Shown here one piece after another: positions 1,385-64,000 of a stretch of 64,000 bases of DNA. The stretch spans positions 83,204,001-83,268,000 of the forward strand of contig CM034546.1 in NCBI GenBank assembly GCA_020055645.1, in the 5' to 3' direction. The notes below the pieces were generated by a model. It worked only from the letters and a program-made list of their open reading frames with translations. It had not been told where the DNA came from and did not search any database. Made by a program: the position numbers and the translations under genes. This DNA comes from Tomocerus qinae. Lineage: Eukaryota; Arthropoda; Collembola; Entomobryomorpha; Tomoceridae. Within the stretch, counting starts at the first letter, position 1; the number at the start of each line of letters is the position of its first letter.

Positions 1385-2464
1385 TTATCTTAAGGACTTA
1401 ATGTAAGTTAACAAACTGTTTTTGAATTGAGGTAAGCAAGTGATATTTTTTAGTTTATACGGTGGGCTATTCCATTCAAAGGCACCTCTTACTAAACACG
1501 AATCTTTAGACTGGGTAAAATTGCACCGTGGAACAAATAAGTCATTTATTTGTCTTGTAGTTCTCCTAGCATTATTTAATCTCAAGTAGTCTGAGAAATT
1601 ACCAGCATGTAGAAAGGTATAAGTATAAACGCATAACGAGTACTTGATTTGCCCAGAAACAGTTAAAATACCAAATTTATCATATATCATTTAGTAAAGA
1701 GATTAGGCATGGCGACATTGCCAGCATATATTCTACGGACAATTTTGTTACTAAAGTAGTACTTTAACAAAAATTGATCAAATAAACTTTGAATACTTTT
1801 TAGATTAGCCTCTGAAGTGCATGAATAGACAACTAATCCATATTCAAAAATTGAGTAAACTAGGGCCCTAAACAATACAGGCATTGATTTTGAGGGAATT
1901 TTGTGCTTATGTAGTAACAAATTATGGACCCTGAAACCCATCTTATGAGAGATACGGTCTATATGAGAATTAAAGTTAAGTTTCTCATCCAATTTTATTC
2001 CAAGGTACTTAAAACTTAGAGTACAATTTATAGTACAATCATTTACATTAATTGAGTCAGGAACTGCATATCAAATTTAGTATGTGGATACCTAAATACT
2101 AAATAATTGGATTTTTCCCAACTAGGTAAGGAATAGTTATTGTTGCACCAATTATTGAACTCCAGCATGTTTGATTGTACAGTAACAATGACATCACTTT
2201 TGCTAGCACTACTTGCTGGGGCCGCTAGGTCATCTGCAATAGTGTTTTTTTGAGCTTAAATATTTATTCATATCATTTATGTAATAGCAATATAAAAGTT
2301 GTTGTAGCGTCGAGCCTTCAGGAAGGCCACCATATACAGGAAAATTGTCAGAACGGAACCAACCAAATCTAATACAGGTACTCCGATTAGTAAAATAGTC
2401 ACACAATATTTTCATGACTTGACTAGGTGGCTCGAATTCGTCCTGCATCTTATTTATCAAGTGT
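1385..2464 (-). pseudogene. LINE reverse transcriptase, C-terminal half
   Basis: Frames at 2460-2230, 1992-1687 and 1690-1385 carry the back half of a LINE reverse transcriptase and its C-terminal domain. The A-D-D catalytic box lies near 2240-2250 but sits after a frameshift in a run of seven T (A on the coding strand). The segment with EYGLVVYS closely matches the LINE at 32192-37112, so both belong to one family. At least two frameshifts and a stop separate the pieces. Confidence 0.8.
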
Positions 2465-2468
2465 ACAT

Positions 2469-2907
2469 TGAAGTGACTCCTCTTTCCCTAAAGCCAGAGT
2501 ACTCCGTTATATGTATTAATCTATTAGTATGATAGAATATGCATATATTATTATTGGCCAATAGCATAATATAATAATGGTGATTATGGTGTTGTGTACT
2601 TACACTACCTATCCCTTCTCTATGCCAAGGTGATGACGATGATGACCAAATAGAACCGGATGTCACGTCACAGGATTAGATAGGATAGTGCACAATTTAT
2701 TATATCTGAACTACAATAATGTTTATAATGAACCGAATTGTATTAGAATAGTGTCTTCTCCTTCTGGTTTTCCCGCACGTCCAACTCCTTGCTCGTTCCT
2801 TTACTCACTGGCGGCTTCGTTGATAGCAAACACGAAGCGAGTTCTTGCCTTGCCGTAGAGTAGTTCTTGGTTGATAGGTTGTTGGGACTGGCGCTGCGGT
2901 CCCTTCA
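2469..2907 (-). repeat. 3' LTR of the Gypsy element
   Basis: 439 bp bounded by TGAAG and CCCTTCA on the plus strand. The part 2603-2907 is closely similar to 9256-9569. The left 130 bp align poorly with the other LTR. The third ORF runs into this LTR as far as 2801. Confidence 0.8.
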
Positions 2908-3226
2908 GTATCCTCCGTTGAAGAGGAAGTGTACCGGGCAAAACCTCTTGTGAGGTACCACTTCCAGATGGATGCTGGATTGAAGAGCCATTAACTATGG
3001 CTGTCCTTAATTTTGGTGGTACTCCGGGATTCTTGGTTTCCACGGCCTTGTTCTTCGTCCTGATGTTTAATTTATGGATGCGACGATTACGTTCATTTCT
3101 CCAGTGTGGGTTGTCATTTCGGAAGGTTCGGAGAAACTCGTTCTTTTCATTGACACAGGACTTTTTGAAATGAGTGTCAGAGCCGCAATTGTAACAGTAA
3201 TACTTAGCTGTCTTCTGAGGAGGCTC
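2801..3226 (-). CDS. CCHC zinc-knuckle continuation of the third ORF
   Basis: A single TAA at 3227-3229 separates this from the exonuclease-like frame; the reading frame is the same. Right after it lies C-Y-N-C-G-S-D-T-H-F-K-K-S-C (3196-3155), a perfect CX2CX4HX4C knuckle, the type that binds nucleic acid in Gag nucleocapsids. A basic stretch follows, and the frame runs into the 3' LTR to stop near 2801. Most likely the stop is a decay mutation and the ancestral product was one protein of about 540 residues, but two separate products cannot be excluded. Confidence 0.6.
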   Translation of the reverse strand, partial: EPPQKTAKYYCYNCGSDTHFKKSCVNEKNEFLRTFRNDNPHWRNERNRRIHKLNIRTKNKAVETKNPGVPPKLRTAIVNGSSIQHPSGSGTSQEVLPGTLPLQRRILKGPQRQSQQPINQELLYGKARTRFVFAINEAASE

Positions 3227-4447
3227 TTATGTCGTGGTTGTGTTGGGCGATGATGTCGACGGACTTGGGTCAATGGAGATATGGATGGAGTCAGTAAAAT
3301 GTTTGCATACAATTTCTTCGATGAATTTCCTGGCACCGAATCTCCTATCATACTCTGGTATGTGTCCAAGGGATTTTGCGAGAGTTTCCGCTGTAGTTGG
3401 TATGCTTCTGGCTATTTTCTCTGCAATTTTAGGCATCAAAACGAGGTTTGGTTGGGTGTCGTAATATTTAGCGATTTGCATTCTCCAGTTAAGTAGATCT
3501 TTGTAAATCTGCAGTGAATCTTCTGAGAGTGCTTTCGAGTAGATTTCTTTTTTGATGTAGTTGTTGTTGACGTACTTCTTAACCGAATCGTTGGTGTAGG
3601 TGGCCAGAACTGTCTTATTAGTTGAGTCATAAATGGATTGAAAGACTGCGATGGGGTTGTCTTTATGACTTTTTGCCTGCTTGATGACGAGTTCTTTCTG
3701 GTGATTCCATATACGAAGTAAAGTAATGGCTCCGTATTCTTCGAGTTCAGCGGGTAAGATATGATTGGCCACGGGTGGTCTAATTCTTACACGAAAATCT
3801 GCCCATTTAACATCTTTGTTGACTTTTTGACTGGCTGCTTCTCCAAGATAAAAGTCGACGGCGTTATTGAGGCTGATTTGTCTGTCGTTCATATACAAAT
3901 AATAATGACCTGCTTGAGTGTCTAGTACGTCTGTTGTGTATATTTGGAAGCAACATTGGAGCTTGTGGACGTCGTTGTAATGATCATGGAATATTTTGAT
4001 AATATACTTGTCTTCCAGAACTTGTCGAAGGAGTGTCATGATGAGAGAGTGGGTGGGATAGGGATCAATTATAAAAGTGTGATCCGGAATGGCGATTTGG
4101 ATGACTGCAGTCGAGCAGATGAAAGAGTTTTCTTCGTCCCACTTGATGTCAACTGCAATTTCTTTTGCGGACTGTAATAGACGGATCATCCACCGAAATT
4201 GCTGTTCGTTACGTACGTAGACTGGTTTTCGCTCCAAATCCAGGCTCTTGTAGATGTTCATGTGCAACACCACTTGCTGTGGCGGTCTCCAATTTTGGAT
4301 GGCCTTTTTCATGAGATTTGTTGACGAGTATCTGGGGCATGTATTCCAACGTCGTTGGTTGTCCAGAAAAATTGGGTAATCATCTTGTGGCCTAGATAGT
4401 GGTTTGGGCCACTTTTCACGCAAAGACTTAATTTCTTTGATGTTCAT
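3227..4447 (-). CDS. Rrp6/EXOSC10-like 3'-5' exonuclease domain with HRDC, carried by the Gypsy element
   Basis: A 406-codon frame, the longest intact one in the element. Residues 1-75 resemble the region before the nuclease domain of EXOSC10. Residues 75-250 read as a DEDD-type exonuclease: motif I A-V-D at 98-100, motif II around D159, then the family block W-A-D-F-R near 215-219 and L-P-x-E-L-x-E-Y at 231-238. Residues 303-382 resemble the HRDC domain (WRMQIAKYYD at 321-330). In the cellular family this enzyme trims RNA in the nuclear exosome. Here the motif I glutamate is lysine (D100-I-K102), and the aspartate four residues after the motif III tyrosine (Y238) falls in a three-residue gap, so activity is probably lost. 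It lies 130 bp after integrase, on the same strand. The domain call rests on motif reading, not a search. Confidence 0.75.
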   Translation of the reverse strand: MNIKEIKSLREKWPKPLSRPQDDYPIFLDNQRRWNTCPRYSSTNLMKKAIQNWRPPQQVVLHMNIYKSLDLERKPVYVRNEQQFRWMIRLLQSAKEIAVDIKWDEENSFICSTAVIQIAIPDHTFIIDPYPTHSLIMTLLRQVLEDKYIIKIFHDHYNDVHKLQCCFQIYTTDVLDTQAGHYYLYMNDRQISLNNAVDFYLGEAASQKVNKDVKWADFRVRIRPPVANHILPAELEEYGAITLLRIWNHQKELVIKQAKSHKDNPIAVFQSIYDSTNKTVLATYTNDSVKKYVNNNYIKKEIYSKALSEDSLQIYKDLLNWRMQIAKYYDTQPNLVLMPKIAEKIARSIPTTAETLAKSLGHIPEYDRRFGARKFIEEIVCKHFTDSIHISIDPSPSTSSPNTTTT

Positions 4448-4470
4448 TTCACCACTAACTGTGGCGTAAC

Positions 4471-4484
4471 CTGCAAAAGGAAAT
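4471..4484 (-). promoter_or_regulatory. candidate 3' splice site before the third ORF
   Basis: On the minus strand the sequence TTTCCTTTTGCAG ends at 4471, 24 bases before the ATG at 4447. It is a pyrimidine-rich acceptor. A spliced subgenomic RNA, as used for env in errantiviruses, would give the third ORF its own message. No matching donor near the 5' LTR was identified. Confidence 0.35.
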
Positions 4485-4578
4485 TGATGTCATGCTTGGT
4501 ATTTTCAAGGATAGAAGGACATAAGATGTTCGTTAATTTGGAGATTGACTGAGGAATTAATTTTGAAAATGAAATATA

Positions 4579-7276
4579 TTAGACTTTATAATTAATATTA
4601 CGGTTTCTGGGTCGAAATTTCCTTTGGGAAGGAAAATCGGTATCAGAAACAATAAGATCATCATTTTTATTAAGATTTTGTATACGTTTTTTCTGAAAAG
4701 ATTTTGAGTGCACAATAGGATCAATATCAACGTCAGATACATGGTAATTAGTCGTGGATTGTTTCTTAGGATTAGTAAGGACGGTATAAGTAACGGGAGT
4801 AGGTTTACCAACAACTTCATACGGACCAATCCATTTTTTAAATAACTTGGATGAGAGTTTAGCAGCAGCATCTGCTTTTTGATGGTTCCTAACTAGCAAT
4901 AACTGTCCAATTTCGTAAGAAACATCGCGATGGAATAAATCATATCGACTTTTAGTAATCTGATGTGCATGAATGAGATTATCTCTAACTAAACCAATGA
5001 TCTCTACTAATTTTTCGGGTAGATTGTCAGGAGAGGGTTGGGAGGAGGTTTGTAGTGCGCGATCAAGGGAGAGGGGAATTTTCTTACCTAGATTAAGAAT
5101 ATCAGCATTTATTTTAGTAGAATTATTGATCGCCGTACGCACAGCTAGCGCAAATTTCTGTAAATATTCATCCCAAGTGTTATGCATACTACCTACATAA
5201 CTACTAATCATAGTTTTAAGGTTCCTGTGTTGCCGTTCAGCTTGATTAGTCTGAGGGTGAGCAACACTAGTGAATTCATGCATAACATTCCATTTATTAC
5301 AAAGACGACTGATTATTTTAGAGGTAAATTTCGTACCATTATCAGACAAAATAACTCTAGGGGCTCCGTACCTACAAAAGATTTCATCTTCTAGAATTAT
5401 TTTTAATTTTGCAGCTGTTGCATTACGTATGGGGAAAAGTTCAACCCACTTGCTTAAATCATCTGTGACTGTGAGAACAATTTTATTATCAGCGCATCTG
5501 GAGCAACCATGTCTCTGCCTGGTCTATGCTTAATTTATATTTCCAATCAGAGAGCATAGCATGCCAGCGATCTAACTTTTTAGATTTACCTAGCATATTT
5601 CTCCACCAAACTAGAGCTTCATGATCCGTTTCTACTGTGATATTTTCTCCGAAAATGTAATTTTTGAATAAATTTACGCTCCACATTATAGCTAAACATT
5701 CCCTTTCTGAAGTATGAAGGTTCTTTTCACTATTTCGTAATTTTCTGCTTGCGTAGTAAATAACACGTTCGACATTATCTTTAGTTTGAACTGCACCTAA
5801 ACCAGTATCTGATGCATCGCATTTAACTGTGAAGGGCAAACTATAGGCGATGCCATGTATGAGGGCACCATTAGCTATGGCGTTCTTTAATTTTACAAAT
5901 GCATCTTCATGCTCAATAGTCCATTTATATTTGTTTCCTTTCTTAAGTAGCGAATACAAAGGACAACAAATAGTAGCGTAATCTTTAACAAATGTGGACT
6001 GATATTGACACAGACCTAAGAATTTTTGAAGTTCTTTAACACTAGTAGGCCTAGGATATTTATTAATTGCTTCTACTTTAGATTTGTCATGTGCTATGCC
6101 ATCTTGCGTAATAATATGACCAAGGTATGAAACTTCTCTAACACCAAATATGCATTTTTAAGGATTTACAGTTAAACCTGCTTGTAATAGTCTATTAAAT
6201 ATTACTTCAAGGTGTTGAAGGTGTTCTTCTAATGTTTTAGAGTAAACCAACAAATCGTCAATATAAACTACAGCGAATTTGAAAAGGTAACCATCTAAAA
6301 CTCTATCCATTAACGTGGAAAAAGTAGATGGCGTATTTCTTAAACCAAAGCTCATCACGAGCATTTCGTATAAGCCGTGAGGCGTGATAAAAGCTGATTT
6401 TGGAATACTATTCATGTGCAATAATCCGCTTTTTAAATCAATCAATGTGCAATAATCCACATCAAGTCTTAAAATTTGATGTGGATTATGAATTGGCGCA
6501 GAATTAGCGGCAGTTTGATTATTAACTTCAGTGTCGTCTATAACTAATCTCCAGTCTCCAGTTTTCTTTTCTCTATAAAAACAAGGTGAAGCCCATGGAG
6601 GACGAAAAGGTCTACAAATACCTAATCTTAACATTTCATCTAAGTCAGTTTTAAATCTGTCTCTAATTACTTGATTGTTACATGGAAAACATTTTTTTCT
6701 AACAGATTTGTCATCTGGACAATCTATTACATGATATGCCCAATTAGTTCTGCCTAATTTGTTTGAAAACACTTCAGGATATTTATCAATTAACGCTTTA
6801 ATTTGAATTTGCTCAGGTGTCATGTGAGGATTGTTTAAAGGAAAAGTTGTGTTAGGTTCGTTGACGTACCAGTAGACTTGTCTCGGTAAGCTCAACTCAA
6901 TGTTCATTTGTGTAATAAAATCAGCACCTAATACGCATTTGAAAGGTAAGTTATCAATAATGAAAAATGTAGTTTCAATTTGCTTTCCATCTAAAATTAA
7001 CATAATAGTCATTACGCCTAATGGTCGAATTGTTTCATTGTTAGCAGCTTTAAGTTCAATTTTTTGAGATAGTTTTGTATAATGTTTTTTAATTTTCTTG
7101 GCAAAGTCTTTAGAAATAAGGGAATAAGTTGAAAGAGTATCAAATCCAGCTTGAAAAGATTTAGAATTGATTGAGACTTCTACTGTGGGAACACCGTAAT
7201 CGTTTACTTGAAGGACCGGGAGGCAGATGGATTGTCGTAAGTCTGACTCCCTGCCAACTCTTTTAAAGGATGGCAT
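4579..7276 (-). pseudogene. Gypsy pol: protease, RT, RNase H, integrase (decayed)
   Basis: From 7276 the order is protease, RT, RNase H, integrase. The protease active site should be D-T/S-G but reads D-T-L (D46, near 7140). RT keeps the Y-I-D-D box near 6263-6252, and the motif A aspartate in LIDLKSG. A TAA at 6158-6160 interrupts the RT thumb region. RNase H is recognisable at 5959-5530 (CDAS and ETDHEA boxes). At about 5490-5530 the sequence jumps to the integrase core; the HHCC zinc-binding domain of integrase and the end of RNase H are deleted. The integrase core has both aspartates (near 5465 and 5345) and the glutamate in NQAER. Its C-terminal domain ends at 4579. With a mutated protease, a stop and the deletion, this copy cannot be functional. 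Confidence 0.88.
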
Positions 7277-7419
7277 TGATTTTCTTCCATTTCTCTTTGT
7301 CGTGCTTCATCAAATCCTTCGGAAACGGTGATTTTCATCTTCATTCCATTCTCTGTGGCAAGGATCCACAAGTGGGAGTGCAACTCCGCTTTTGCTAGGG
7401 CACTCGCGAGCATAGTGGC

Positions 7420-8640
7420 CTATGCCCCTGTATTTTCTGCGGACAACTTCATCGCTGTTGCCTTGGGAATTATTGTTTCTGGGGTTTTGGTTTGATTGTC
7501 TTGTATTGTTCTGTTTTGATTAATTTTGCTGTGAGTTATTTTGACTGTTTTGCTGTTGCTGATTAGAATTTCGTTGGCCGTTGGTGGAATAGTTGTTATA
7601 ATTGTCGGCAGGATTGTTAGTTGAACTGTTGTGGTGGCCGACTCGATAAGACTGATCTCGTTGCTGGCCTCTGAAATAGCCTCTGAAATTTCCTCTGGGA
7701 TTTTCTCTTTTGTATGGATATCTTTGGTAAGAGTTAGGTTGGTTTTGCTTTTCTTCATTTGTTTTCTGAAATTATTTCCTAATCTCAGCTTCTTGTCTTG
7801 TGGCTGGAGGTAAGTCGGATTGTCTTTTGTAGAAATTGTCTTCGTCACGTAGATTTCTAAGAGCTTGTGTCCCGTAAAGAATAAGATTATCAGCGTTCAT
7901 AGGTGTGAAATAAGGAATAGCCAATCGAAGTCGTGGTGTCAAAGTTGAAAGTATGCGTTGAACGGACACTTCTTCGGGTTCTGTAGGATTTACTTGCTTA
8001 GCCAGGGTTAGCATGTCGTATACGTAGGATTCTAAAGGTTCATTTATGTGCTGTCGACGAGAGTAGAGTATTCTAGCCCGTTCCGCTTGATGGTTTGGAG
8101 TATCGTATTTGTCCCTAAATGCTTGAAAAAGTTGTCCCAATCGAGTGTACTTGTTTTGATTAATTCAAACCATTGCTTGTTTTCCTTCGGTAGAACAGAA
8201 CTTAGCATGTTGATGTAGTCCGTAGCTTTGGCTTTTGAAATATCTTTCTAAGTCATCAAGGTAAGTTTCTGCTGAATGTTCCTTCGGTTTGTATTCAGGT
8301 ATCTTTACATTGGAATTGGGGGCGTAAAGGTTAACTGTCTGTTGATTGGCCAGTGGGAGTGGCTTTTGCTTGGGCTTGCTTCTTTTTGGCTTCTGCTTGG
8401 GCTTGCTTCTTTTAAGCTTCTGCTTGGGCTTGCTTCTTTTTGGCTTCTGCTTGGGCTTGCTTCTTTTTGGCTTCTGCTTGGGCTTGCTTCTTTTTGGCTT
8501 CTGCTTGGGCTTGCTTCTTTTTGGCTTCTGCTTGGGCTTGCTTTATATTGGCTTCTGCTTGTAACCTTGTAAGGCTTTATCTTTATTCTTCGAATAGCTG
8601 TCTTGTCTTTGTGTTCTGCTTTTATTTAGTATGGGCGTAG
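7420..8640 (-). pseudogene. Gypsy gag with internal repeat array (decayed)
   Basis: Gag-like sequence upstream of pol. A repetitive N-terminal stretch (see 8366-8554) is followed by capsid-like frames around 8330-7772, with at least two frameshifts near 8230 and 8125, and a Q/N/R-rich nucleocapsid region with an in-frame TAA near 7520. The nucleocapsid knuckle survives as G-H-Y-A-R-E-C near 7400, but its first two cysteines are replaced by R and Y. Identity rests on position and composition. Confidence 0.7.
8366..8554 (-). repeat. 27-bp tandem repeat, 7 copies, in gag
   Basis: Unit CTTGGGCTTGCTTCT followed by TTTTGGCTTCTG, repeated seven times with little divergence. On the minus strand it encodes a 9-residue unit of type QAQAEAKKK, expected to form a charged alpha-helix. 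The plus-strand reading (leucine- and tryptophan-rich) is antisense. Confidence 0.85.
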
Positions 8641-9240
8641 ATTTCTTCATGCATGAGAAATAGCACACCAGTAACTCTGGCGAGCCTTGCAATGGAAATA
8701 GTGTAATGACTTTTAGATGAAATAGGAATTATTTAAATGATTAAACTTTGCTGTAAGTCACTGCCTGTGACTGTCTTCAAAGTTAAAAGTCAAGAATTAA
8801 TATATGGCCAGTAACTCTGTAATAGCAATGCAAATCTTTGCTTAAACAAAAATGAAGATATTCACAACCATTAGCTATGGTACGAAAAATGTTAAATTTA
8901 TCTTGAGTGAGATCAAGTAGTTTAGTTATAGGTTGAGTGAAGTAAAAGGAATACGAGCAAGGTACGTTCGGAGACAAGGACAATTTGTATAAATGTTAGT
9001 GCAGTCGTGGCTTCTAGCTAATTTGCATACGTATGTAATGATATCTAGCTTTTTAGACATAAGACCTGGCGCCTGGCGCAATGAATTGCATTAAATTTCG
9101 TTTAACACGATTAATTTAGCACATACAACAATAATAATCAATAAATGGCATAATAAAATGATTTATGTAATTGTATATTATATTTGTTATTTGTATTGTC
9201 TTACGCGAATTGTAGGTGTTACACTCGTGCGAAATTTAGC

Positions 9241-9569
9241 ATGACTCTTCTTTCCACTACCTATCCCTTCTCTATGCCAAGGTGATGATGATGATGACCA
9301 AATAGAACCGGAGTCACAGGATTAGATAGGATAGTGCACAATTTATTATATCTGAATTACAATAATGTTTATGATGAACCGAATTGTATTAGAATAGTGT
9401 CTTCTCTTTCTGGTCTTCCCGCACGTCAAACTCCTTGCTCGTTCCTTTACTCACTGGCGGCTTCGTCTGCGAGTCTCTTCGTTGATAGCAAACACGAAGC
9501 GAGTTCTTGCCTTGCCGTAGAGTAGTTCTTGGTTGATAGGTTGTTGGGACTGGCGGTGCGGTCCCTTCA
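9241..9569 (-). repeat. 5' LTR of the Gypsy element
   Basis: Ends CCCTTCA at 9569, followed by the ACAT duplication. It is highly similar to the other LTR over about 310 bp, with a 14-bp extra piece near 9466. The inner border is uncertain: 9241 is where clear similarity ends, but weaker matches may reach about 9100. Confidence 0.75.
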
Positions 9570-9573
9570 ACAT

Positions 9574-10300
9574 AGTTAAGGCTTGGAAATGCCTTGTTTA
9601 TATCATAAAAAGACACACTTGCATAATTACGACTATCTATGGTAGTATAAATTGTATTTGTTAATTCCACTAGAGCATGAGTAGTCGGCAGACCTTATTG
9701 AAAACCATATTGGTTATCAAAAGAATAAGAGTTTGATAACATATGTGTAGTTAGATTAGTTAACAAAATAGACTCAAAGGTTAGACAGGCAGTATTAATG
9801 TATAGGGAAATTCGACCTCTGCCAATTGAAACTACATGTTTGACCCGCTGGCAGTAAGACTATTAACTGTTAACATATAGTCAGCTGTCGGTAGTGTTCA
9901 CTTCGAGTAAATACGATCAGGTGATTGGTAGTGCATGAATAAGTTGGCGGTCTTTAGTCTTACAGCGATCGGGTCCAACATGCAGTTTCAATTGGCAGAG
10001 GTCGAATTTCCCTTATACATTGATACTGCATGTCTAAGCCCTACTCTGCCTAGGAATGGGATTATAGTTATGAGTCTATGACTATTGGGATTTTGTTTAT
10101 CTCCATTGGGTTTTAAAAGTGGAGCAGCAACTCCTGCCTTCCATTCCTTAGGAATACAGCCAGTCTTAAGACATAAATTAAAAAGTTTTGTAATAGGTAA
10201 TACAAGTATCCCTAACATTACCTTTATAGTTTTAGGGGGAACACAATTTATGCCACTAGAAGCACTAACTTTATAGTAGGCACAGTAGGCAGTGTATTTG
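9574..10300 (-). pseudogene. LINE reverse transcriptase, N-terminal half
   Basis: Frames at 10300-10014 and 9803-9574 hold the front of a LINE RT: the P-P-K-T-I-K and T-K-L-F-N stretches, then the PLLK and IIPFLG region, and after the MITE the D-I-N-K-A-F-P motif A. The Gypsy element follows directly at the codons after FPSLNY. Confidence 0.75.
9804..10013. mobile_element. 210-bp MITE in the LINE
   Basis: About 30-bp near-perfect terminal inverted repeats starting AGGGAAATTCGACCTCTGCC, flanked by TAT on both sides. No coding capacity. The short target duplication suggests a Tc1/mariner- or Harbinger-type mover. Confidence 0.7.
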
Positions 10301-15520: not shown

Positions 15521-16746
15521 GTTAAGAGCGAATATGATAGTCAAGCCCAATCATCATTAGAAACCATACCTACCTCTTAAACGTCTCTACCATCCCTACG
15601 AATCCAAAAGTCAATTTTCATAATTTTCAGGTGGGGAAGAAACGGTTGGACGGCCACTTTAAGCCTCTTTATTGAGGGGAGCTGAAAAATCTGTTGCCGG
15701 GTGAAAAATTTTGTGGGCGTCGGGTCCCATGAGTGTCGGATATTTGGGAGAATTTTGTGTAAATGTTATTTTCAAAATTGGAATTTATTATTCGCCCTTA
15801 TTGGGGCAAGCTTCTTAACTAACAATAAAAGTGCTATGGATACTAAACTCCTATGTATACCCACTTTCTATACATACTGTATGAGTGGATTAGCTGAAGA
15901 AATGCCATTTTCAAAATCAAAATATATTTAAGTAAAATAAACAAAATTCGAAAGGACCAGGCAACAATCTCGATAAGATAAGATTAAAATTTAATATGCT
16001 AAAATAAGTCATGGTTATGTTTATACTCAAACACTCTTTAACACACGTTTTATTCATTATGTATCGCATTATGGATCTATACGTTATGGTTTTAATGACC
16101 GAAATATTACAAATATTGCTATATGTTGTAAGTGTAAATTGTAGGTGTTCTTAAAGCTGTATTTTAAATATCCAGAAATTCTAAATCTAAAGGTTCGTCA
16201 GCATATTCTGCCATGACTCGCGCGGCTGCCGCCACGCGGTACACACTATAGACAATTTCCCTTCCTAAATTTTTTCACTAAAAATTCATTTACTAATTGA
16301 TTTCCCATACAATTGGCTGCAAAATACATTTATTATTAAAATCTTTTCCATTAATAGTTGATCTTTGATATCACTGCAAATTAAATTGTGCTTGTTTACT
16401 CAACTTTCAATTCCAAATAATTGATATCTTATATCGCGTTTTATTCAACTCGCCTGCCGGCTAACATAGTGATATTCTCAACATGGTTTCATCCCAAAAT
16501 TCCATACTAATACTCTTTGCTGTTACTACGTGCCGATTGGATTTTCACCTTGCCTGACGATGCCACAAGCCAAAATTGACCATTGGATTTCCGGATACCA
16601 ATATTCAACTGTCTAATAGTGACCTGTGTATGGCACTATAAACAACATACACATCATACTGTAAGGCCTCTTGAATTTTTGTCAATTGACCTTGCAAATG
16701 ACACTGTTGAAGTAACCTTGAATCTAAAACTGAAAATTTCTCTCTG

Positions 16747-19700
16747 ATGGCTAAAAATTGTAATAACTGTTGCAAACCCATTACTAAACTTCAGCATTTT
16801 GTAAACTGTTCTAGCTGTGATGCCTACTATCATCGAAAGGGTTGCCTTCTACCTGTATCCTCTACAACCTTTGCTGAATGGAAAAGGATGGGATGGAGAT
16901 GCTTAACTTGTGAAAACCACCTAAGCCTTATGGACAACCCTTTACCTAATTTGATTGATGAATCATACCTATTGAACCATACTCAGACCTTCTCCAACGT
17001 TGCTGAAGCGAACTTGAATGAATGGGAATACTCACCATGTGAAATCAGCTTAAATCCTTTGACCGGCAACTCTTTACCTAATTGGAATGATGAATCGCAC
17101 CCACTTTATGATCTCCAGACATCAATCTTCAACTACTCACTACAAAATACGCCAGATCAAGCAACTTTGAATGATCAAACTCCACAACATCGACTTCCGG
17201 CCGGACTAAAATTTATTCACCAAAATGTCAACGGACTCAAAACAAGATATAACGAAATTCGTGAGTTGTTAACTATCGAATCGAATATATTATTTTATGC
17301 ATGCACTGAATCAAAACTTGATTCTAATAATGACGAAACTCAACGATTTTATATAAAGAACTATCAATGTATACGATTCGATAGAAGCAGAAAAGGTGGT
17401 GGTATTCTAATTTATCTTAGTTGCGTATGTGATTATGATGAAATTGAAATACCAACATCATTAATTATGCATAAGGAAATTGAAGTAGTGACTCTTAGAG
17501 TAAAAAGAAAATTCCTTAAACCTGTTACAATAACTACTATTTATAACCCTCCTAATCGTGAAAAATCTCTACTCCTCACAACATTAAGTAATATTGCTGC
17601 ACACTTGAAATCTTCTGATGATGATCTTATTTTTCTTGGAGATTTAAATATTGACCTGCTTAGTCATAACAGACACAAAGCTGAATTATTTAAAATATCA
17701 AGAGAATTCAATCTGCGGCAGCAAATAATTGGTGCTACTCGTGTAACAGAACTGTCTGAAACACTTTTAGATCATATCTATGTATCAAATAGTAAACTAT
17801 TCCCAAAAGCTGGCCACTTCCCCTTTGCTGGTTCAGATCATGACCTTACATATGTTATTCGAAAAATGAATAAGATAAAAGCCTTGCCCTTGATTATAAC
17901 AACACGTAATCTAAAATCAGCTGATTGGGACTCAATACAAACTATTTTGGCTAAGAGCAAATGGGAACTGACCAGCTCAAATAGTGTTGATTATAATATT
18001 GATCTTATAACTAATAAGCTCTTATCCCTTGCTGACATCCACACACCTATTTGTAAAATTAAATGTAAAGGTAATCTTCCTAGCTGGTATAACTCAGAAA
18101 TTCGTGATATGTGTAAATTACGGGATAAAGCTGCAAAAACGGCAAGCATGTCTAAATTAAAACTGATTGGAAACAATATAGGATTCTAAAAAATAAAGCC
18201 ACTAATCTCATGAGGAAAAGTCAAAGTAAATACCTACAAACTAATTTTGAGAAATATAAAAAAGAACCTCAGAAATTGTGGAATATTTTTGACGAATTCA
18301 CTAACTACAAAACCAAACAAAATAATGGTATAACCAAGCTAATAAGTAACGACAACCTATTAATCTCAGATAATGATAAAATATGTACTATGCTTTCTAA
18401 TCAGTTTATTATTAAAAAGGATACTAATATAATTAGTGACTCTGAGTTAGACCAATTAATCTCTAATTATTCGCTCGGTAAACCCAATGCTATACCAATA
18501 CTCACCAAAGAAGAAGTCTCACATGCAATTGGTAGTATAAAAAAAGCATCTTTTGACCCTAATGAAGTTCCAAAAATATTCTATCAAAAATTTGCGGATA
18601 CATTGGCTGTACCATCATGCTTTCTCTTTATGCAAATATTAAATTCTTCGATTGTCCCACAAGTTTTCAAATCTGCAACTATTACCCCTTCATATAAAAA
18701 AAAGGGTAGTAAATCTAGTGCAAAAAACTATCGGCCTATCTCGGGTCAATCGTTTCTATGCAAAGTCTTCGAAAAATTAGTATTTCCAATATTAAATAAA
18801 ATGATAGTACATGAACTTGATTCTCATCAATATGGGTTTAGAGCAGGACGGTCATGTGAACATGCTCTTGCTAAATTCACTCAAGACTGTTATAACGAAA
18901 TTGACGGTAAAAATCAACGAGTTGTAGCAGTTTTTATTGATTTTTCCACTGCATTCGATGGCGTCCAAAGTAATTTACTTATCTTAAAATGTATTATCCA
19001 ATTTCAGCTCGAACCCTTTATGATCAATCTTTTGCGTGACTATCTTCGAAATAGAACTATAAAAATTAAAAATGGGCGCTATATATCAAATGAATATCTT
19101 GTTGAAGCAGGCATCCCCCAGGGGGGGTTACTTGCGCCTCTCCTTTTTACAATGTTCATAAATGACATTGGCCATTCACTTAAAGTTAAATATATACTTT
19201 ATGCAGATGATGTTCTTTTATATACATCGCATTCAGACCTAAATATAGCCATTGATAAAATAAATATGGCAATGGAAACAATTAATGAATGGTGTGATCG
19301 CAATAAATTATATGTAAATGAGCTTAAAACAAAATTTATGGTTATTCACAAAAGTGGCGACTACACAGTTAAAAATCTTCACCTGAACCCTATCACTATA
19401 AATAATCTACCAATTGAAAGAGTATACTCTTTCAAATATTTAGGAATCCATATTGACTGTAATTTATCGTTTAATGAACATGCCAGTTCTGTTGAAAAGT
19501 GGTAGCAGCCTTGTCCAGGCTATATTCAATTAAAAGGTTTCTAAATAAAAATATGATGCAAATAGTTGTTCAGTCATTTGTTTTTTCCATCATTAACTAT
19601 GGTTTAATTATATGGACAGTCGTCCCTGAAACAAAATTAAAAGCAATTGACAACAAAATTCACAGATTCATTATTAATTTTTTTTACCCTAAACTTTTCA

Positions 19701-20047
19701 AATTTAATCAAAATTATGCAACTAAACCGAAATCTAAATCTAAATTTCAAAAAAATGTCAGTATTAATAATTTACTAAACCAATGTAGATTTTATACCAC
19801 ACTGGAACGACGTGAAATTAACTTGGTCAAATTTGCGTTTAAATCTCTTACTGGTAAATTCCCTGGCTGTAATGGTAATCTAATTCTAAGTAAACGAACA
19901 CACAGCTTTCCAAAACTTAGCAATAGAGTAAGGCAATCAGCCACTTTCAAAAAATCTATTATGAGCTCGGCTATTCATGCCTGGAATAAACTGCCCGTTA
20001 AAGGTCTTATGAAGAGCTTAGTTACAATAAACTTATTGATCTGGTAA
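16747..20047 (+). pseudogene. LINE polyprotein: PHD finger, AP endonuclease, RT
   Basis: The first frame (16747-18189, 480 codons) opens with a PHD-type finger: CNNC, then CSSC, an H, and WRCLTC near residues 5-55. An apurinic-type endonuclease follows from HQNVNGL near residue 158, with GDLNID and SDHDL boxes. The second frame (18210-19505) is RT with FIDFSTAFD motif A, PQGG, and Y-A-D-D near 19200. The third (19499-20047) is the C-terminal domain. Two breaks, near 18190 and 19500, separate them. This is the best preserved LINE in the window. It belongs to a different family from those at 1.2, 12.5 and 32 kb. Confidence 0.88.
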
Positions 20048-27049: not shown

Positions 27050-29610
27050 GGGAAGCGTTATAACAAAGTTAACTGGAATGATTTAAATCTTGAAGTTAGT
27101 AAGCTGAATTGGAGCACGCTATCAGACTTGGAAGTAAACGAGCAACTAGATTTCTTTACATATGAAATTCAAAAGCTGGTTGATCAATACATTCCACTAC
27201 GTACTGGTTATACTAAAGTCTTTTTATCACCATGGCTCAAAGAAACGCATGCTCCAGGTTTAAGAGCCATGATTTATGAGAAACAAAAGGTAAAAAACAA
27301 ACTTGATAAACACTTTAGTCCACAATTACAAATTAAGTTCAAAAGATTGAAATATCGTGTTTCTAAAGAATTGGCGCAGGCAAAGAAAGATTATTTCATC
27401 AAGAAGTTGACTGATAACAAAGATTCATGTAGTATATGGCATAAATTGAATATACTTTTTTGTAATAATCGTAAACAAGCAAATTGCATTGAATCTCTCA
27501 ATATTAATGATTGTATAATTGAGAGCAATGCTTCTCTATGTGAAACTCTAGCTGATACTTTTATGGTAAACAGTAAAACTGATTCTCAGGTAGATGAATT
27601 TTATAAAATACTAGGCGATATTTCTAGCTATACTTTAATTGATACGGACAATCTGTCCACTAAGTTACCGTTAACTATTACAAAGGAGGATTTAGTCCGA
27701 GCTGCAAATAAAGTTAAGTTTAAAGTAGCTGATAAGAATGTAGAGATACCTGCTCAGGTTATCAAGGGTTGTATGACATCTATCATTGACAACTTAACTA
27801 TCATTTTCAATAATGTTCTTAATTCTGGAACTTTGCCTAACTTATGGAAACAAAGCAAAATTGTACCATTATACAAATATAAAGGTAGCAAATCAGACCC
27901 CTCATCCTATCGTCCTATTAGCAACTTGCCACTGCTAAGTAAATGGCTTGAGGTGATACTTAAAACAAATATTTCTACTTATGTAGAAGACAATAATTTA
28001 CTGACTGACGAGCAACATGGTTTTAGACCAGGGAGATCTTGAATAACTGCGCTCACTACACTAACTCAGCACTTATACTCAGAGCTGGACAAACCCAAAA
28101 TGAAAGTGGGGGCCCTTTACATCGACATCAAACAGGCTTTTGACCACGTGATCCAGGATAATTTAACTGAAATGTTGACTAACTATTATAAATTCCCTCC
28201 CACATACAGTAATTTCTTCAAAAATTATTTTTTAAATCGAAAATTCGTGGTAGTGAATGGAAACTACACTTCTCAACCATTTGAGTATGGGCGCGGGGTC
28301 ATACAGGGGTCAGTACTTGGTCCTCTATTATTTAACCTATATTTTAACATTATTTCTGTCAAATTAAATAGCATAGGTATTTTCCATGTAATGTTTGCAG
28401 ATGACCTGGTATTGGTCTATGCTACCGAAAATGCACTAGAAATCACTAATATGTTATATAGATAACTATCTCAAAAGTCTGGACAAATGGTGCTGTTCAA
28501 TTGGATTACAATTAAACTATGACAAAACCAAATATATGATTTTTACAAAAACTAACACGTGTGTAAATGACAACCTCACTCTTAATTGTAATGGACACGA
28601 TATAGAGGGAGTTTTTGTATTTAAGTATCTGGGTGTACAATTGGACTCTAAATTAAACTACAATGTCCATTTCAACTATGTTGAAAAGAGATACTCATCA
28701 GCGCTAGGTGCACTAAATAGAGTCAGAAGACAAGCCCCTTTTAAAATATATACAATGCTTCTTAGTACCTACGTGCTGCCCTTTTCTGACTATGCCATAT
28801 CTATTTGGGGCCCTACTAAATTAAATCAAATGGGTTCTCTTCAAAATAAAATAAACAGGACTCTATGTATCTATCAGTATCCTAAATTAGGAAAATATTA
28901 TAATAAATATTTTTGGTCGAATTCTTGTAATGAAAATAATCTTAAAGTTAAGCAATGTAAACTAGATCATCAAAAAGTGAATTACTATATGTTACTTGAA
29001 AGAGGTAATCTTTTAACTGTACAAGAAAGATTACTATATGTTACAATGATAAGTTTGTATAAGATATTAATATATGGTACCAAAATTATTTCAATTAATA
29101 ATTATTATTGTAATGTTAAAGATTTTGTATCAACAAGACGCACAAGGCAATCCAATGATCTACCAGTTATTTATCATCATACAGCTGCTTTTGCTAAAAG
29201 TCCTGTAGTTTATGCCAGTAATTCTTGGAACTCCCTTAGTCATGTGCTGAAAGCTAAAAATTTTTCTGTCTGTAATTTTGCATATCTGCTAAACCAATAT
29301 ATACTTATATTACGTAAGGATGACTATGTATTCTAGCGCTAATATAATTTTAAGTACACTTCTATCTACTAGATGTTACTAGCTTTAATTTTTAGAATAC
29401 TTATGTGTTTTAACACATTAATCTTATGTTTGTATGTATAAATTGACTATCGAACTTTATCTGGGTACGTATCGGCTTTGATTGTGGGAGTAAGGTGACG
29501 ATACTGGCTTGCCTTCAGTGCTGACTGTTGTTAAAACATTTCTTCTTGTAAGATTTGAACTTTTTAGCACTCAAATAAATACGAATACGAATATGAATGA
29601 ATATGAATCT
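27050..29610 (+). mobile_element. 5'-truncated CR1/L2-like LINE
   Basis: Starts in the region between endonuclease and RT and ends with an AATAAAT signal and AATACG/AATATG units at 29573-29608. It lies directly beyond the right end of the receptor cassette. Confidence 0.82.
27128..29336 (+). pseudogene. LINE reverse transcriptase (decayed)
   Basis: Frames 27128-28042, 28100-28465 and 28536-29336 cover the linker, RT and C-terminal domain. Motifs: SYRPISNLPL, the QHGFRPGRS segment, D-I-K-Q-A-F-D motif A and F-A-D-D near 28400. There is a TGA at 28040 and a frameshift near 28463. The family differs from the other LINEs here. Confidence 0.85.
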
Positions 29611-32737: not shown

Positions 32738-35142
32738 TCATAATATCGAAAAAGACATTCCCAGATCGTAGTCTATCAGCCACTTTGGCATTACATGAAA
32801 ATTGATTAGAAAGTTGTCAATGATTGATTGAATTCTTTGTAAATTAGACTCAGAGGTAGCAGAATACACAACTAGACCATATTCAAACAGAAAGTATACA
32901 AGTGTTCGGAAAAGAATTGCCATAGTTTTTGATGGAATAAATCTTTTATTACGTAACAAATTATTAGCTCTGAAAGACATCTTCTGGCAAATATACGTAA
33001 TGTGTTGATCAAAACACAATTTATCATCAAAAACTATACCAAGATATTTAGTTTGTGATTTCTGTACCAAAGAGTTACCGGAAGGATCAGTAACAGAACA
33101 TATTGGAGGAGGAGTAGGCCTATTAGGGTTTCTGAATTGAATGAACACAGATTTCTCCCAACTAGGTGTAGCCAAATTATCAGTACACCACCTGTTTAAA
33201 GAATGCATTGAGTTGGCCACTTCCAAAGAAAGAGAATTGGGATCATTGACACACAATGGATTTGAAATATCATCCGCATAGAGTGACAATGATGTCGTAA
33301 AGTAATTTTTAATGTCGCTAATGTAGTAGCAGTAGAGAAGAGGTCCTAGTATGGACCCTTCTGGACAGCCACCAAAAACATCAAATTTTGCAGATAGAAA
33401 TGAACCAAGGCGGATAGAAACGTTCCTATTGCAGCAATAGCTACTATGGAACTTAGAGATAATAGAACCTAGAGATAATCTGGAACTTGAAATTGATCCC
33501 TAAAATTGGTAGTCAAAAGAAAGCTTTTCACTCCCCATATGTAGCTCCAATTTATCACGAATAATAACTTCAAAGACTTTACCTAGATAGGGAACAATTG
33601 ATATCAACCGATAGGATCCAGGGTCATTTCTGCTACCTCCGGTTTTAAAAAGAGGTCTCGCTATAGATTCTTTCCAAACTTGAAGAAATTCTCCAGTTGC
33701 AAAGGCAAGATTTAAAATTTTCGCAATTTTATCTGCTAAACAAGAGTGTAATAGCTTAATCAGCTTAGCTCGTAAGAAGGAAATGCCAGCCGCATTTGAA
33801 GGCTTTACATGATGGAGATACAGTATTACCATCTACTATTAGCTTATTAGCACCTTGGAATGAGTTTCATAGTTTTAAAAGACTAGTGGTATCATCACTA
33901 TGAGACAAGGCAAACATATTGAAAAACAAGAAGCAATGTCTGCATTTTCAGTTACCAGACTATCGTTTTAATTGACCTCAGTTATTATAGTAGATTGGGT
34001 ACTAGTATTAGTCAATTGTTTGTATAACGTAAACAGTTCAGCTTGATCAGAGGTTTTTCGAAAAGAATTTAAGTAGTAATTACGCTTAGCTTTTCGAAGC
34101 AAATTATTTGTATAATTCTTGACTTTATGACTATAGTCAAAAAGAATAATATTGGCATCAGATAAAGCTAATAATTTCTTTAAATAATCTCTATAATGTA
34201 TCATCTTTTTTAAGTCCGCATCTATCCATGGGTTCTCAAAAGACTTTACATTTCTTTTTACTATTGGCACCATATCATTGAGTACATTCATACAGAGAGA
34301 TTCAAACGTTGTTAACATTTCATTTATATTATCACATGAATCTAAGACAGACCATGGAACATTATTCAATTCAGTTTCAGCTAAATTAGAATCAAAGTTT
34401 TTATAGTTTCTAGTACAAATCATTTTACGTTTGAATTTACATTTGTTTTTCTTTCTTACAACGTAAATGAAGTCATGGTCAGACAAGTGGGTGGAAATAA
34501 CTCCAGCATCTTTAACGTAACCATCCCTATTAGAATACACATGATCAAGAAGAGATTCATAAATAGTACTAATACCATTCAACTTTCTACGTCTATGAAA
34601 AGTAGATTTGGTGATATACTGTTTAAACCCTAATGAAGACATACTTCTTACTAGTTTATTAGACTTCTTATCAGTCAATGTATCAGAGTTTAAATCACCA
34701 AGAAATATGACTTCATTGGAATGACCATTTAAATGGAGGAATAGTTTAGATAATTCACTTATAAAGCCCAAAGTGTTAGTACCATTCTTTCCATTAATAT
34801 CAACCAAGGGAGAGTCAGGATGTTTATAGATACAAGAAATTACAAATGGGGCAGACTCAGGAAGCTTAACCTTAATACACAAATACTCATTTTCATTAGT
34901 AAAATCGTCATATACTATCTGTGATACATTAAGGTTTTCCTGAAATAAATGACAAGCCCACCTCTTGCCTCTGCCTGTCAAGCCTTAAAAGAGTGTAGTT
35001 ATCGATGCTGTACATTTCATCTGAGTAATGCGTCTGGGTTCCATGACTTTCAGATACACAAATAACGTCAAAATCATAGAACCGTGCATAAACCTCAAGT
35101 TGATCTTTTTTGTGATAAAGGCCATTGATATTCACATGCGCA
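32738..35142 (-). pseudogene. LINE endonuclease and reverse transcriptase (decayed)
   Basis: The endonuclease begins near 35142 with NINGLYHKKDQLE and continues in 34981-33968, with GDLNSD and SDHDF boxes. RT follows in 33832-33500 and 33289-32738. The Y-A-D-D box is near 33280. Frameshifts occur near 34980, 33900 and 33400-33500. The C-terminal domain contains EYGLVVYS, shared with the LINE at 1231-10300. Confidence 0.87.
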
Positions 35143-35342
35143 ATGCAGCAATATCAAAGGAATTCTGTAGTGATAAGGATGGTGAGTCCATATCACCATA
35201 GAGCAGTTGAAAGTCAGCATCGTCAACTGAGACGAATGGAAAAATACAAGGCATGCAGAAAAATACACTGTAATGGCTATTATCTTTACAATTTTCAAGG
35301 TTAGGCAAACTGCATCTATGGAAAGGCTGTGAGCAAGCATGG

Positions 35343-36552
35343 TTGGATAGGAAATGAAAAATGTCACTGCTCATTTTTGTTCAAATTGGTGGTTAATCGG
35401 TTTATCATAGTCTAGAAGGACATTAAAAAACTTTTTTTATTTATTGGGAATACCCTAATTCCCGAATTCGGGTATTAGAAGTGAAAGGTCAATATCTCGG
35501 TCAAAGGTCAACGTAAGGCGTTCAAATTTACACGGTTGAAAGCCCTTCTTAAGACCTTTCGAGTGATATATATCAAGCATGGGGTCATCGCAAAACGATT
35601 GAGAAAAAACTGAAAAAGTGGAAAATTATGGTAAAATTTGAAATTCAATATTTTCGAAAGTTGCAAGTTGTTGCAAAAGTTATTTCCTGCAAAAGATGCT
35701 ACGATAGTAGGTCTACACGTCCCTACTAACCGTTAAGCAGAGCAGTGCAGAGCGTGAGAGAAATCGATGTTCAAATTTCTTAAGAATTACCAATTTTCTT
35801 CGTCAGTAGTATGCATGTGCGGAACTTACGCCCATCAATTTCCCACTTCAATTGCGCCAATATGGGATTGGCAGGGACCTTTTCTACTAGCAGCAGACTG
35901 TAGTAACACAGCTGTAAACGACTCCAGTTCACCGGCTTCAAAATCTTGGAGTACCGAATTTCATAACCACTTAACAGCTGTGTTACTGCAGTCTGCTGCT
36001 AGTAAAAAAGTTCCCTGTCAATCACATATTGGCGCAATTGAAGTGGGAAATTGATGGGCGTAAGTTCCGCACATGCATACTACTGACGAAGAAAATTGGC
36101 AATTCTTAAGAAATTTGAACGTCGATTTCTCTCACGCTCTGCACTGCTCTGCTTAACGGTTAGTAGGGACGTGTAGACCTACTATCGTAGCATCTTTTGC
36201 TGGAAATAACTTTTGCAACAACTTGCAACTTTCGAAAATATTGAATTTCAAATTTTACCATAATTTTCCACTTTTTCATTTCTTTCTCAATCGTTTTGCG
36301 ATGACTCCATGCATGATATATATCACTCAAAAGGTCTTAAGAAGGGCTTCCAACCGTGTAAATTTGAACGCCGTACGTTGACCTTTTACCGATATATTGA
36401 CCTTTGACTTCTAATACCCGAATTCGGGATTTAGGGTATTCCTAATAAATAAAAAAGTTTTTTAATGTCCTTCTAGACTATGATAAACCGATTAACCACC
36501 AATTTGAACAAAAATGAGCAGTGACACTTTTTATTTCCTATCCAACCATTGT
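35343..36552. mobile_element. 1.2-kb hairpin element in the LINE
   Basis: Two arms of about 600 bp, from ATGGTTGGATAGG outward ends to a loop of about 60 bp near 35915-35975. The arms are very similar but not identical, with scattered substitutions. No coding capacity is convincing. It divides the LINE between its finger and its endonuclease. The flanks (minus strand) read GCTTCACA and GCTTGCTCACA, a possible imperfect target duplication. Confidence 0.8.
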
Positions 36553-36863
36553 GAAGCATTACAATTTACAATTATAAGATTCTTTAAAGTCTTAAGGCAG
36601 CACATACCTGTTATGACATTGTTGCTTAAAATATTAGACACGGGCTGCTTTTTCAAAACTAATTTACAATTAAAACATAGAAATGATTTTTTAGAAAACA
36701 AAAATAAGAATTTTTTTTGAGAAAACGAGGTACACAATCTATGGAAATAAAAACCACAATTGCTACAATGAAGCCAATTTTTTCTATCGTCTACACTATT
36801 ACACTCAATGCACACAGCTTTCTTCGTTAAAATTTTCGGAGACATTAGAAGAGTAGAAGACAA
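36531..36863 (-). pseudogene. LINE N-terminal PHD finger
   Basis: Starts at ATG 36863. Carries CIEC, CSNC, an H and FLCFNC in PHD spacing, as in the LINE at 16747. The frame then runs into the hairpin and stops, so it is cut off from the endonuclease at 35142. Confidence 0.8.
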
Positions 36864-37097
36864 ACAACCGAATTCACCAATTAATTATTAGGTCATGGCA
36901 AACCTTGCACCATACAGATGGGTCAAACACTATGACCATGGGCAATTATTAGGCCCCAGGAAGCCTGGCAGCGTACATATGGGCTAAGTACTAGCCGAGG
37001 CATTTTAATAGGCGCCTGGTACCTAAAAGCTTAGTAGCAAGCAAGGAGCAGCCAGCAAGGTAGAGAGGAGGCAGAGTCAAGTGCTCAGCTCGAAGGC

Positions 37098-62990: not shown

Positions 62991-63494
62991 ACCAACCTCA
63001 CAGCACTGACCAGGTTTAAGTGCACTGAAGATTGCATGACCTATTATGAAATTATTGATAACAAAGTTTTTCTGGTTCAGACGTGTAGGGATTTGCCACA
63101 TATTGTGCTTAGCTGGGATTTAGAATTACGGCAAATTAACATACAGAAGTACAAACATACAATGTCACGTGACTAACTTTTGCGGTCTATCTAATAGTAA
63201 TGATAATGTTCGCGGGTATTTCTGCCAGTAAAAGTAAACAAACTAAACTTCCAGTCTACTTTATATCTAACGTCTTTTGGAAAGTTATGGATTCGCATTT
63301 GTATTAATATTTTATTTCATGTCAATAACTCATGCTAAAAGAGCATATACGGGATATTCATTTGAGTATACAGGTTGTCACTATCGATATACGTAATATC
63401 CTTTTGCATATACAAGTTGTCACTACCGTCATACGAAATCATTTATACAAGTTATCTAGATACTCTACGGCTGAGATATAGAATATTAACTCAC
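62991..63494. other. intron, no gene seen
   Basis: Intronic on the minus strand. GTTGTCACTAYCG words repeat at 63374 and 63417; no clear mobile element. Confidence 0.4.
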
Positions 63495-63818
63495 AGCAAA
63501 ACTTCGGTCATTAAATCTCCAGTATTTGTTAGCCTTGAAGAAATAGGTGTATCCATTCGTGTAACGGAGAGCTGCATCTAAATGGTTCGGAATCCCATTC
63601 CAATTGGAAATAGGCTTCGGATAACCCAGACTGACTTGCGGTGTCCTAGCAGGGTCAAATCTCCAATACTGGTCTCCCTTGAAGAAATATATTTTTCCAT
63701 TCCCTGACCACACTGTGGCAGTGTCTATGTTGCCAGGCACCCCAGAAAATCCATCGGAAATCTCTTTCGGGTACCCTGTATCCATTCGCATGTCCGTGAA
63801 CCGCCAATACTTAGAACC
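63495..63818 (-). CDS. Mmp: matrix metalloproteinase, hemopexin-domain exon
   Basis: The acceptor GATTATTTCAG ends at 63819; the donor GTGAGT starts at 63494. The exon is 324 bases, 108 codons, phase 0 at both ends. It shows about two and a half hemopexin repeats, each with the K/Q-Y-W-R-F signature (residues 3-7, 51-55 and 97-101), the G-Y-P-K/P-I segments and D-A/T-A helices. The level of motif identity with arthropod secreted and membrane MMPs is high. In this family the catalytic zinc domain is encoded upstream, here beyond the window end. MMPs cut extracellular matrix; the propeller binds substrates and inhibitors. Both exons downstream are phase-compatible. Confidence 0.9.
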
Positions 63819-63889
63819 CTGAAATAATCGGTTGTAGGTTAAAACATCGAAAGCCATTTGTTCGAATGACGTTTTATGGTCAAAATAAG

Positions 63890-64000
63890 ATAGAATACAT
63901 AAACATAGAATGCAAAAACAAATGTTTGAATACCGAATACCAAATGATAGAATGCAAAAACAAATGTTCGAATGCTGAATGCACAAAGATAGAATGCAAA
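63890..64000. repeat. tandem repeat, about 44-bp unit
   Basis: Two and a half units of ATAGAATGCAAAAACAAATG plus GAATRCYGAATRC words. The array runs out of the window. A related piece lies inverted at 53490-53540. Confidence 0.7.

Follow-up and report, generated by a model that had tools for sequence, protein, structure and literature searches.

What does a retrotransposon do with a gene that resembles a host RNA exonuclease? The question is raised by a decayed long terminal repeat (LTR) element of the Ty3/Gypsy type in the collembolan Tomocerus qinae (assembly GCA_020055645.1, contig CM034546.1, positions 83,204,001 to 83,268,000 of the forward strand; this whole stretch of 64,000 nucleotides is referred to as the window). 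As the original prediction, made from the letters of the sequence, had stated, the element carries a third open reading frame (ORF3) on its own strand between integrase and 3′ LTR. This is the position of env, and the frame extends into the 3′ LTR. We hold, with moderate confidence in the explanation as a whole, that ORF3 descends from an Rrp6/EXOSC10-type exonuclease-HRDC protein, that it is a native third gene of the element, and that it has turned into an RNA-binding accessory protein, possibly one that reads hairpins. ORF3 and the sequence just ahead of it show the following features, all on the minus strand:

3230–4447: ORF3, 406 aa, Rrp6/EXOSC10-like exonuclease fold plus HRDC with catalytic residues partly lost (Pfam, structure relatives, alignment, model overlay)
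3770–4222: exonuclease domain, residues 76–226 (PF01612)
3332–3514: HRDC domain, residues 312–372 (PF00570)
2804–3226: in-frame continuation of ORF3, a basic tail (net charge +14) that enters the LTR (frame and charge reading)
3155–3196: CCHC zinc knuckle CYNCGSDTHFKKSC, the only CX2CX4HX4C in the six frames of the window
4471–4490: TTTCCTTTTGCAG, a splice-acceptor candidate preceding ORF3 (consensus score)

Fold, active site and expression of ORF3

The frame stays open for 406 codons up to a TAA at 3229–3227 and, behind it, for another 141 codons up to the stop at 2803–2801; the longest stop-free run in 500 mononucleotide shuffles of 2908–4580, all six frames considered, was 203 codons. Following 75 residues that precede the exonuclease match, Pfam identified both families that the prediction had named, DNA_pol_A_exo1 (PF01612, E 8.3e-18) and HRDC (PF00570, E 3e-5, 24.3 bits). 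These are the only matches above cut-off; LOTUS-like domains were not found in ORF3, and PMC2NT (PF08066) gave no match in a Pfam listing up to E 10. The 13 solved structures that are closest by sequence are all Rrp6/EXOSC10, and the predicted model of ORF3 overlays most of the Rrp6/EXOSC10 core. Of the predicted exonuclease–HRDC–knuckle protein, the two domains are thus borne out by Pfam, whereas the active site is probably dead and the knuckle lies in frame behind a TAA that had gone unmentioned.

The active site was compared by aligning ORF3 with 47 of the 120 EXOSC10 relatives listed by a profile search. Of four conserved acidic metal ligands, ORF3 has lost two: the motif I Glu, present in 46 of the 47 relatives, is replaced by Lys, and the motif III Asp, present in all 47, falls into a gap. 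ORF3 still has the first Asp, that of motif II and the Tyr of motif III. Near the active site, further conserved positions have changed from HH to WD, GA to DH, W to K and H to I, and among the 117 columns that are conserved in at least 45 relatives ORF3 keeps 41 (27/65 in the exonuclease domain and 8/26 in HRDC, counting columns with an ORF3 residue). Judged from these residues, ORF3 is probably not a working nuclease. The LTRs of the element differ by 7 substitutions in 299 aligned sites (2.3%, with 22 gap columns; 2603–2907 against 9255–9569), and most of the residue change in ORF3 must therefore predate the insertion; the element, as far as can be read from one copy, therefore probably spread with a dead nuclease.

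With respect to expression, the acceptor ending at 4471 lies 24 positions before the ATG of ORF3 and ranks first among the 463 AGs of the element and ninth among 3,510 on the minus strand of the window, as scored by a home-made consensus whose weights were set from general knowledge. A spliced mRNA for ORF3 is plausible from this arrangement, and the available text of a study of bdelloid rotifer elements describes the expression of LTR-element ORF3s via spliced messages (PMC5408684).

Searches for relatives returned host proteins. A protein search yielded two matches among 2,513 candidates, both EXOSC10 with 24 and 26% identity; owing to its length limit, it would have overlooked any ORF3 that forms part of a long polyprotein. 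The profile search produced 5,161 EXOSC10-type matches among 8,000 candidates scored, and identity to each of the 47 aligned proteins is 21–26%. Scans of viral_contigs with ORF3, reverse transcriptase (RT) and two alignments detected no relative, the RNase D models of NCBIfam matched ORF3 far below their cut-offs, and a BFVD fold search with ORF3 gave weak matches, mainly to DNA polymerases. In the literature, searched at the level of titles and the beginnings of abstracts, no LTR element with an exonuclease-HRDC ORF3 was found. Among the host proteins, a predicted 1,139-aa protein of Petromyzon marinus contains tandem EXOSC10-like exonuclease-HRDC segments in which, by eye, the motif I DLE block is missing.

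Hairpins with AGNNA loops

The sense strand of the element contains a set of short hairpins with five-nucleotide loops of the form AGNNA. In the following list, all on the minus strand, z refers to sites folded alone:

8867–8881: ACCAT-AGCTA-ATGGT, leader; z −1.58
8756–8772: AGTCAC-AGGCA-GTGACT, leader; AGNNA loop with a different stem
8666–8682: CGCCAG-AGTTA-CTGGTG, just before the gag ATG; z −2.86
7243–7257: TTGGC-AGGGA-GTCAG, a loose member sharing the AGNNA loop only
5866–5882: CGCCAT-AGCTA-ATGGTG, within RNase H; z −1.86
4450–4466: CGCCAC-AGTTA-GTGGTG, between the splice acceptor and the ORF3 ATG; z −3.07
4268–4284: CGCCAC-AGCAA-GTGGTG, within ORF3; z −0.44
2986–3002: AGCCAT-AGTTA-ATGGCT, ORF3 tail; z −3.44

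AGNNA loops account for 8 of the 18 GC-containing hairpins with a five-nucleotide loop on the sense strand of the element; for 9601–64000, with both strands taken together, the count is 2 of 239. Since the hairpin grammar was first spotted by eye, a comparison that includes all 64 loop classes tests it more fairly: in 400 shuffles of the element the AGNNA class reached 0 to 3 members and the largest of all classes 6, a size attained once. The stricter pattern CCAN-AGNNA-N′TGG has six exact sites on the sense strand of the element, none on its other strand and none elsewhere in the window. Correspondingly, the largest hairpin cluster has six members in the element and at most four both in 300 shuffles (four in 2 of the 300) and in 14 strand segments elsewhere.

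The stem pair beside the loop varies between U-A, C-G and G-C, and over seven aligned sites pairing amounts to 84.1% as against 68.3% after shuffling. The innermost pair and the CCA/TGG were used in finding the sites, the outer and lower stem pairs were not. An Rfam scan of 2400–9700 up to E 1 matched no family, and the same level of literature search found no description of AGNNA-type hairpins.

The element and its surroundings

Apart from ORF3, the element has the following parts (minus strand, except for the strandless duplications):

2469–9569: decayed LTR element of the Ty3/Gypsy type (paired LTRs; matches to protease-RT and RNase H, and weak ones to integrase, all from the same strand)
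9570–9573: ACAT, putative target-site duplication (direct reading)
9242–9569: 5′ LTR (aligned to the 3′ LTR; low edge set by eye at the shared TGACTC end)
7420–8654: gag region, interrupted by stops and changes of frame, including a 27-nt tandem array at 8360–8561
6158–7276: protease and RT (RVT_1 3.1e-16; gag-asp_proteas 1e-6)
5489–5959: RNase H (RT_RNaseH 6.1e-29)
4579–5349: C-terminal part of integrase (SH3_Tf2-1 7.6e-5 and rve 0.018, both below Pfam cut-offs)
2469–2907: 3′ LTR (LTR alignment; by eye, longer than the 5′ LTR by about 115 bp of AT-rich sequence close to the low edge)
2465–2468: ACAT, putative target-site duplication (direct reading)

Protease, RT, RNase H and integrase follow each other on a single strand in the usual Ty3/Gypsy order. 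An RT search retrieved nine proteins among 1,166 candidates, with 31 to 54% identity over part of the query. Both gag and pol are broken: the integrase frame differs from that of RNase H, and gag as a single frame was rejected on finding at least two frame changes, a Retrotrans_gag match (E 0.0066) in the 7772–8140 frame being below cut-off. The borders were predicted from TG..CA ends and an ACAT duplication. Both are present, ACAT adjoining the TG..CA ends on either side, but the end of the 3′ LTR is uneven. In the LTR alignment, which spans 2600–2907 against 9252–9569, the 3′ LTR shows by eye five extra terminal bases and its last bases are unlike those of the 5′ LTR; because of these bases and the extra AT-rich sequence, the target-site duplication is plausible and not flush. 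By eye, no clear tRNA match was seen for a primer-binding site, and only a weak purine run for a polypurine tract. The window holds no second copy of the element.

The tandem array in the 5′ part of gag (8360–8561, minus strand) consists of 7.5 copies; two of its three frames are open throughout and the third has one stop, and the presumed gag frame across it encodes lysine-rich repeats. The AT-rich insert within the 3′ LTR (about 2488–2602) contains a palindrome at 2543–2572 and is possibly a small element resembling miniature inverted-repeat transposable elements. At about 9800–10015, a segment of some 30 bases with ACCTCTGCCAATTGAAACT recurs, by eye, as its reverse complement about 170 bp away, perhaps marking a small mobile element. 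Frames like those of non-LTR retrotransposons (long interspersed nuclear element, LINE, type) lie at 16711–20047 (plus strand), 27050–29336 (plus strand) and 32738–36884 (minus strand); all four such frames scanned gave endonuclease or reverse transcriptase matches, some under cut-off. Hemopexin repeats at 63486–63998 (minus strand; Pfam 7.2e-35) presumably belong to a matrix metalloproteinase exon of animal type, by their likeness to such proteins, and point to an animal host.

Relatives and role of ORF3

The original prediction knew of no described lineage with such a gene. This fails at the level of a DEDDy exonuclease ORF3 because the ORF3s of the bdelloid rotifer LTR elements Juno and Vesta were published as encoding one in 2017 (PMC5408684), and a 2019 paper, in its available text, counts a DnaQ-like exonuclease among the accessory domains already known from such elements (PMC6338049). 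Like the Tomocerus gene, the bdelloid ORF3 is an extra frame downstream of pol, between integrase and 3′ LTR on the same strand, and specifies an RNase D-like DEDDy exonuclease; a Cys-His-Cys motif is noted in Vesta2 and Vesta5, and the processing of RNA 3′ ends is one published suggestion for its function (available text of PMC5408684). In contrast, the invariant residues are reported there to be intact (DEED) and HRDC is unmentioned in the available main text (PMC5408684), whereas the Tomocerus ORF3 has lost two metal ligands and has an HRDC domain followed by a CX2CX4HX4C knuckle. The differences from the bdelloid case are HRDC, the lost catalytic residues, the CX2CX4HX4C knuckle, the location in an animal genome close to several LINE-type frames, and the hairpin family.

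Among cellular proteins, Rrp6/EXOSC10 shares the exonuclease-HRDC core and differs in having the motif I Glu and the motif III Asp, in PMC2NT, which is unmatched in ORF3, and in the zinc-knuckle tail that ORF3 carries behind the core. Trypanosoma brucei RNase D (7c42 to 7c4c), deposited as a CCHC-type domain-containing protein, resembles ORF3 in its exonuclease domain, but the overlay is limited to that part (about residues 63–289 of the ORF3 model); this RNase D is an active enzyme. EXD1 and Maelstrom differ as host piRNA factors and, to our knowledge, have no HRDC. The structure relatives of ORF3 also include a complex of Egalitarian with an RNA stem-loop of the I-factor retrotransposon. Egalitarian likewise combines an exonuclease-like domain with a helical module, and according to the available text of its description the two contact RNA stem-loops, two of which are used per transcript, while the presumed catalytic residues, some 15 Å away from the RNA, are not required (PMC13186709). 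Unlike ORF3, Egalitarian is a host gene in which LOTUS-like domains share in RNA binding, and its sequence match to ORF3 is weak (E 8e-4). Membership of ORF3 in the Egalitarian family was rejected, LOTUS-like domains being absent ahead of the exonuclease.

Several observations weigh against a native, hairpin-reading descendant of Rrp6. HRDC clears its Pfam cut-off of 23.8 bits by 0.5 bits, and the likeness of the model to Rrp6 is partly built in because the modelling alignment contained EXOSC10 proteins. ORF3 is known from one copy, its closest relatives found being 24–26% identical, and in this copy the TAA at 3229–3227 severs the knuckle, still in frame, from the domains, whose net charge is −5 (exonuclease) and +1 (HRDC). 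No strong splice donor precedes gag (of 3,360 candidates, rank 91 goes to 9454 in the 5′ LTR and rank 140 to 8668 in the leader), and the best donor of the element, 5087 (rank 8), falls in integrase. As to the hairpins, their tie to ORF3 is co-occurrence alone. Allowing one mismatch in CCAN-AGNNA-N′TGG brings in two further sites, 8820 within the element and 19602 outside it; CCANAGYTANTGG with one mismatch matches the window 12 times against an expectation of 1.70, seven times in the element and five outside; and the hairpin-model score of 8752–8776 (E 0.76) is no better than that of the outside site 19584 (E 0.85). Site 8814, one of the seven aligned, folds unlike the family (z +0.74), and site 4276 (hairpin 4268–4284) folds no better than its shuffles. 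Two of five covariation measures are weaker, with both-side pair changes as high in 27 and further pair types in 15 of 500 shuffles, and for the upper stem alone the same two measures give 91/500 and 235/500. The antisense class AGNNT reached 7 of 72 when the tandem array was left unmasked and no GC filter was applied.

The leader between 5′ LTR and gag ATG, the expected place for a Gag packaging site, contains three of the eight AGNNA hairpins, and the others are spread across pol and ORF3. On this basis the hairpins may be dispersed packaging or assembly sites for Gag, with ORF3 in an unrelated auxiliary role. We regard this as a tentative possibility, as the gag knuckle seems, by eye, incomplete in this copy and one hairpin stands directly at the start of ORF3. 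The 13-bp units are also near-palindromic, so that DNA and RNA readings overlap, and they might be DNA sites for a host transcription factor instead of RNA hairpins; this is quite improbable in view of the AGNNA loop lying on the sense strand in six of six exact sites and of outer and lower stem pairs that, unused in site finding, mostly pair through different bases.

Other alternatives concern ORF3 itself. It could be an active 3′–5′ exonuclease in intact copies that lost its active site in this copy alone, consistent with the intact residues reported for the bdelloid DEDDy ORF3s (available text of PMC5408684) and with the decay of this copy elsewhere. The surroundings of the active site, however, have changed far beyond what LTRs with 7/299 differences would give, and we consider such a late loss distinctly unlikely. 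A host EXOSC10-like transcript might have recombined into one element lineage and been carried passively without a role: the base composition at third codon positions (GC3) of ORF3 is unlike that of pol, as in a foreign insert, and a single copy is known, but 406 codons are still open despite 21–26% identity to the EXOSC10 proteins and the splice acceptor lies directly upstream. Such a passive capture appears clearly improbable, and we side with the original prediction that an RNA-binding accessory protein would be the better reading. Finally, an Rrp6-like core with HRDC and probably without a working site might act as a decoy for the host nuclear exosome or its partners, keeping them occupied and thereby sparing the RNA of the element. 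PMC2NT recruits exosome partners, and this domain, annotated in 89 of the 120 relatives among the matches listed, is the one that ORF3 lacks by Pfam, which renders a decoy very unlikely.

In the explanation that we favour, a native third gene turned RNA-binding accessory, nuclease activity would have been lost before this copy inserted, and ORF3 would have served the element after being made from a spliced mRNA via the acceptor at 4471. The most speculative step is that ORF3, or Gag, recognises the AGNNA hairpins of the element's own RNA; we hypothesise that ORF3 does, Gag being an equal candidate. By analogy with the exonuclease-like module of Egalitarian gripping stem-loops, such recognition would serve transport, packaging or translation control. 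The most far-reaching version, in which a dead exonuclease–HRDC–knuckle protein would read about eight AGNNA hairpins, including those at the starts of gag and ORF3, and thereby couple genome recognition, ribonucleoprotein transport and translation, we consider doubtful.

ORF3 bears on what the non-envelope third genes of LTR elements do. A probably dead active site and a hairpin family in the same transcript point to RNA recognition rather than to 3′-end processing. If true, ORF3 would parallel, independently, the turn of nuclease folds into RNA-binding adaptors in Egalitarian, EXD1 and Maelstrom.
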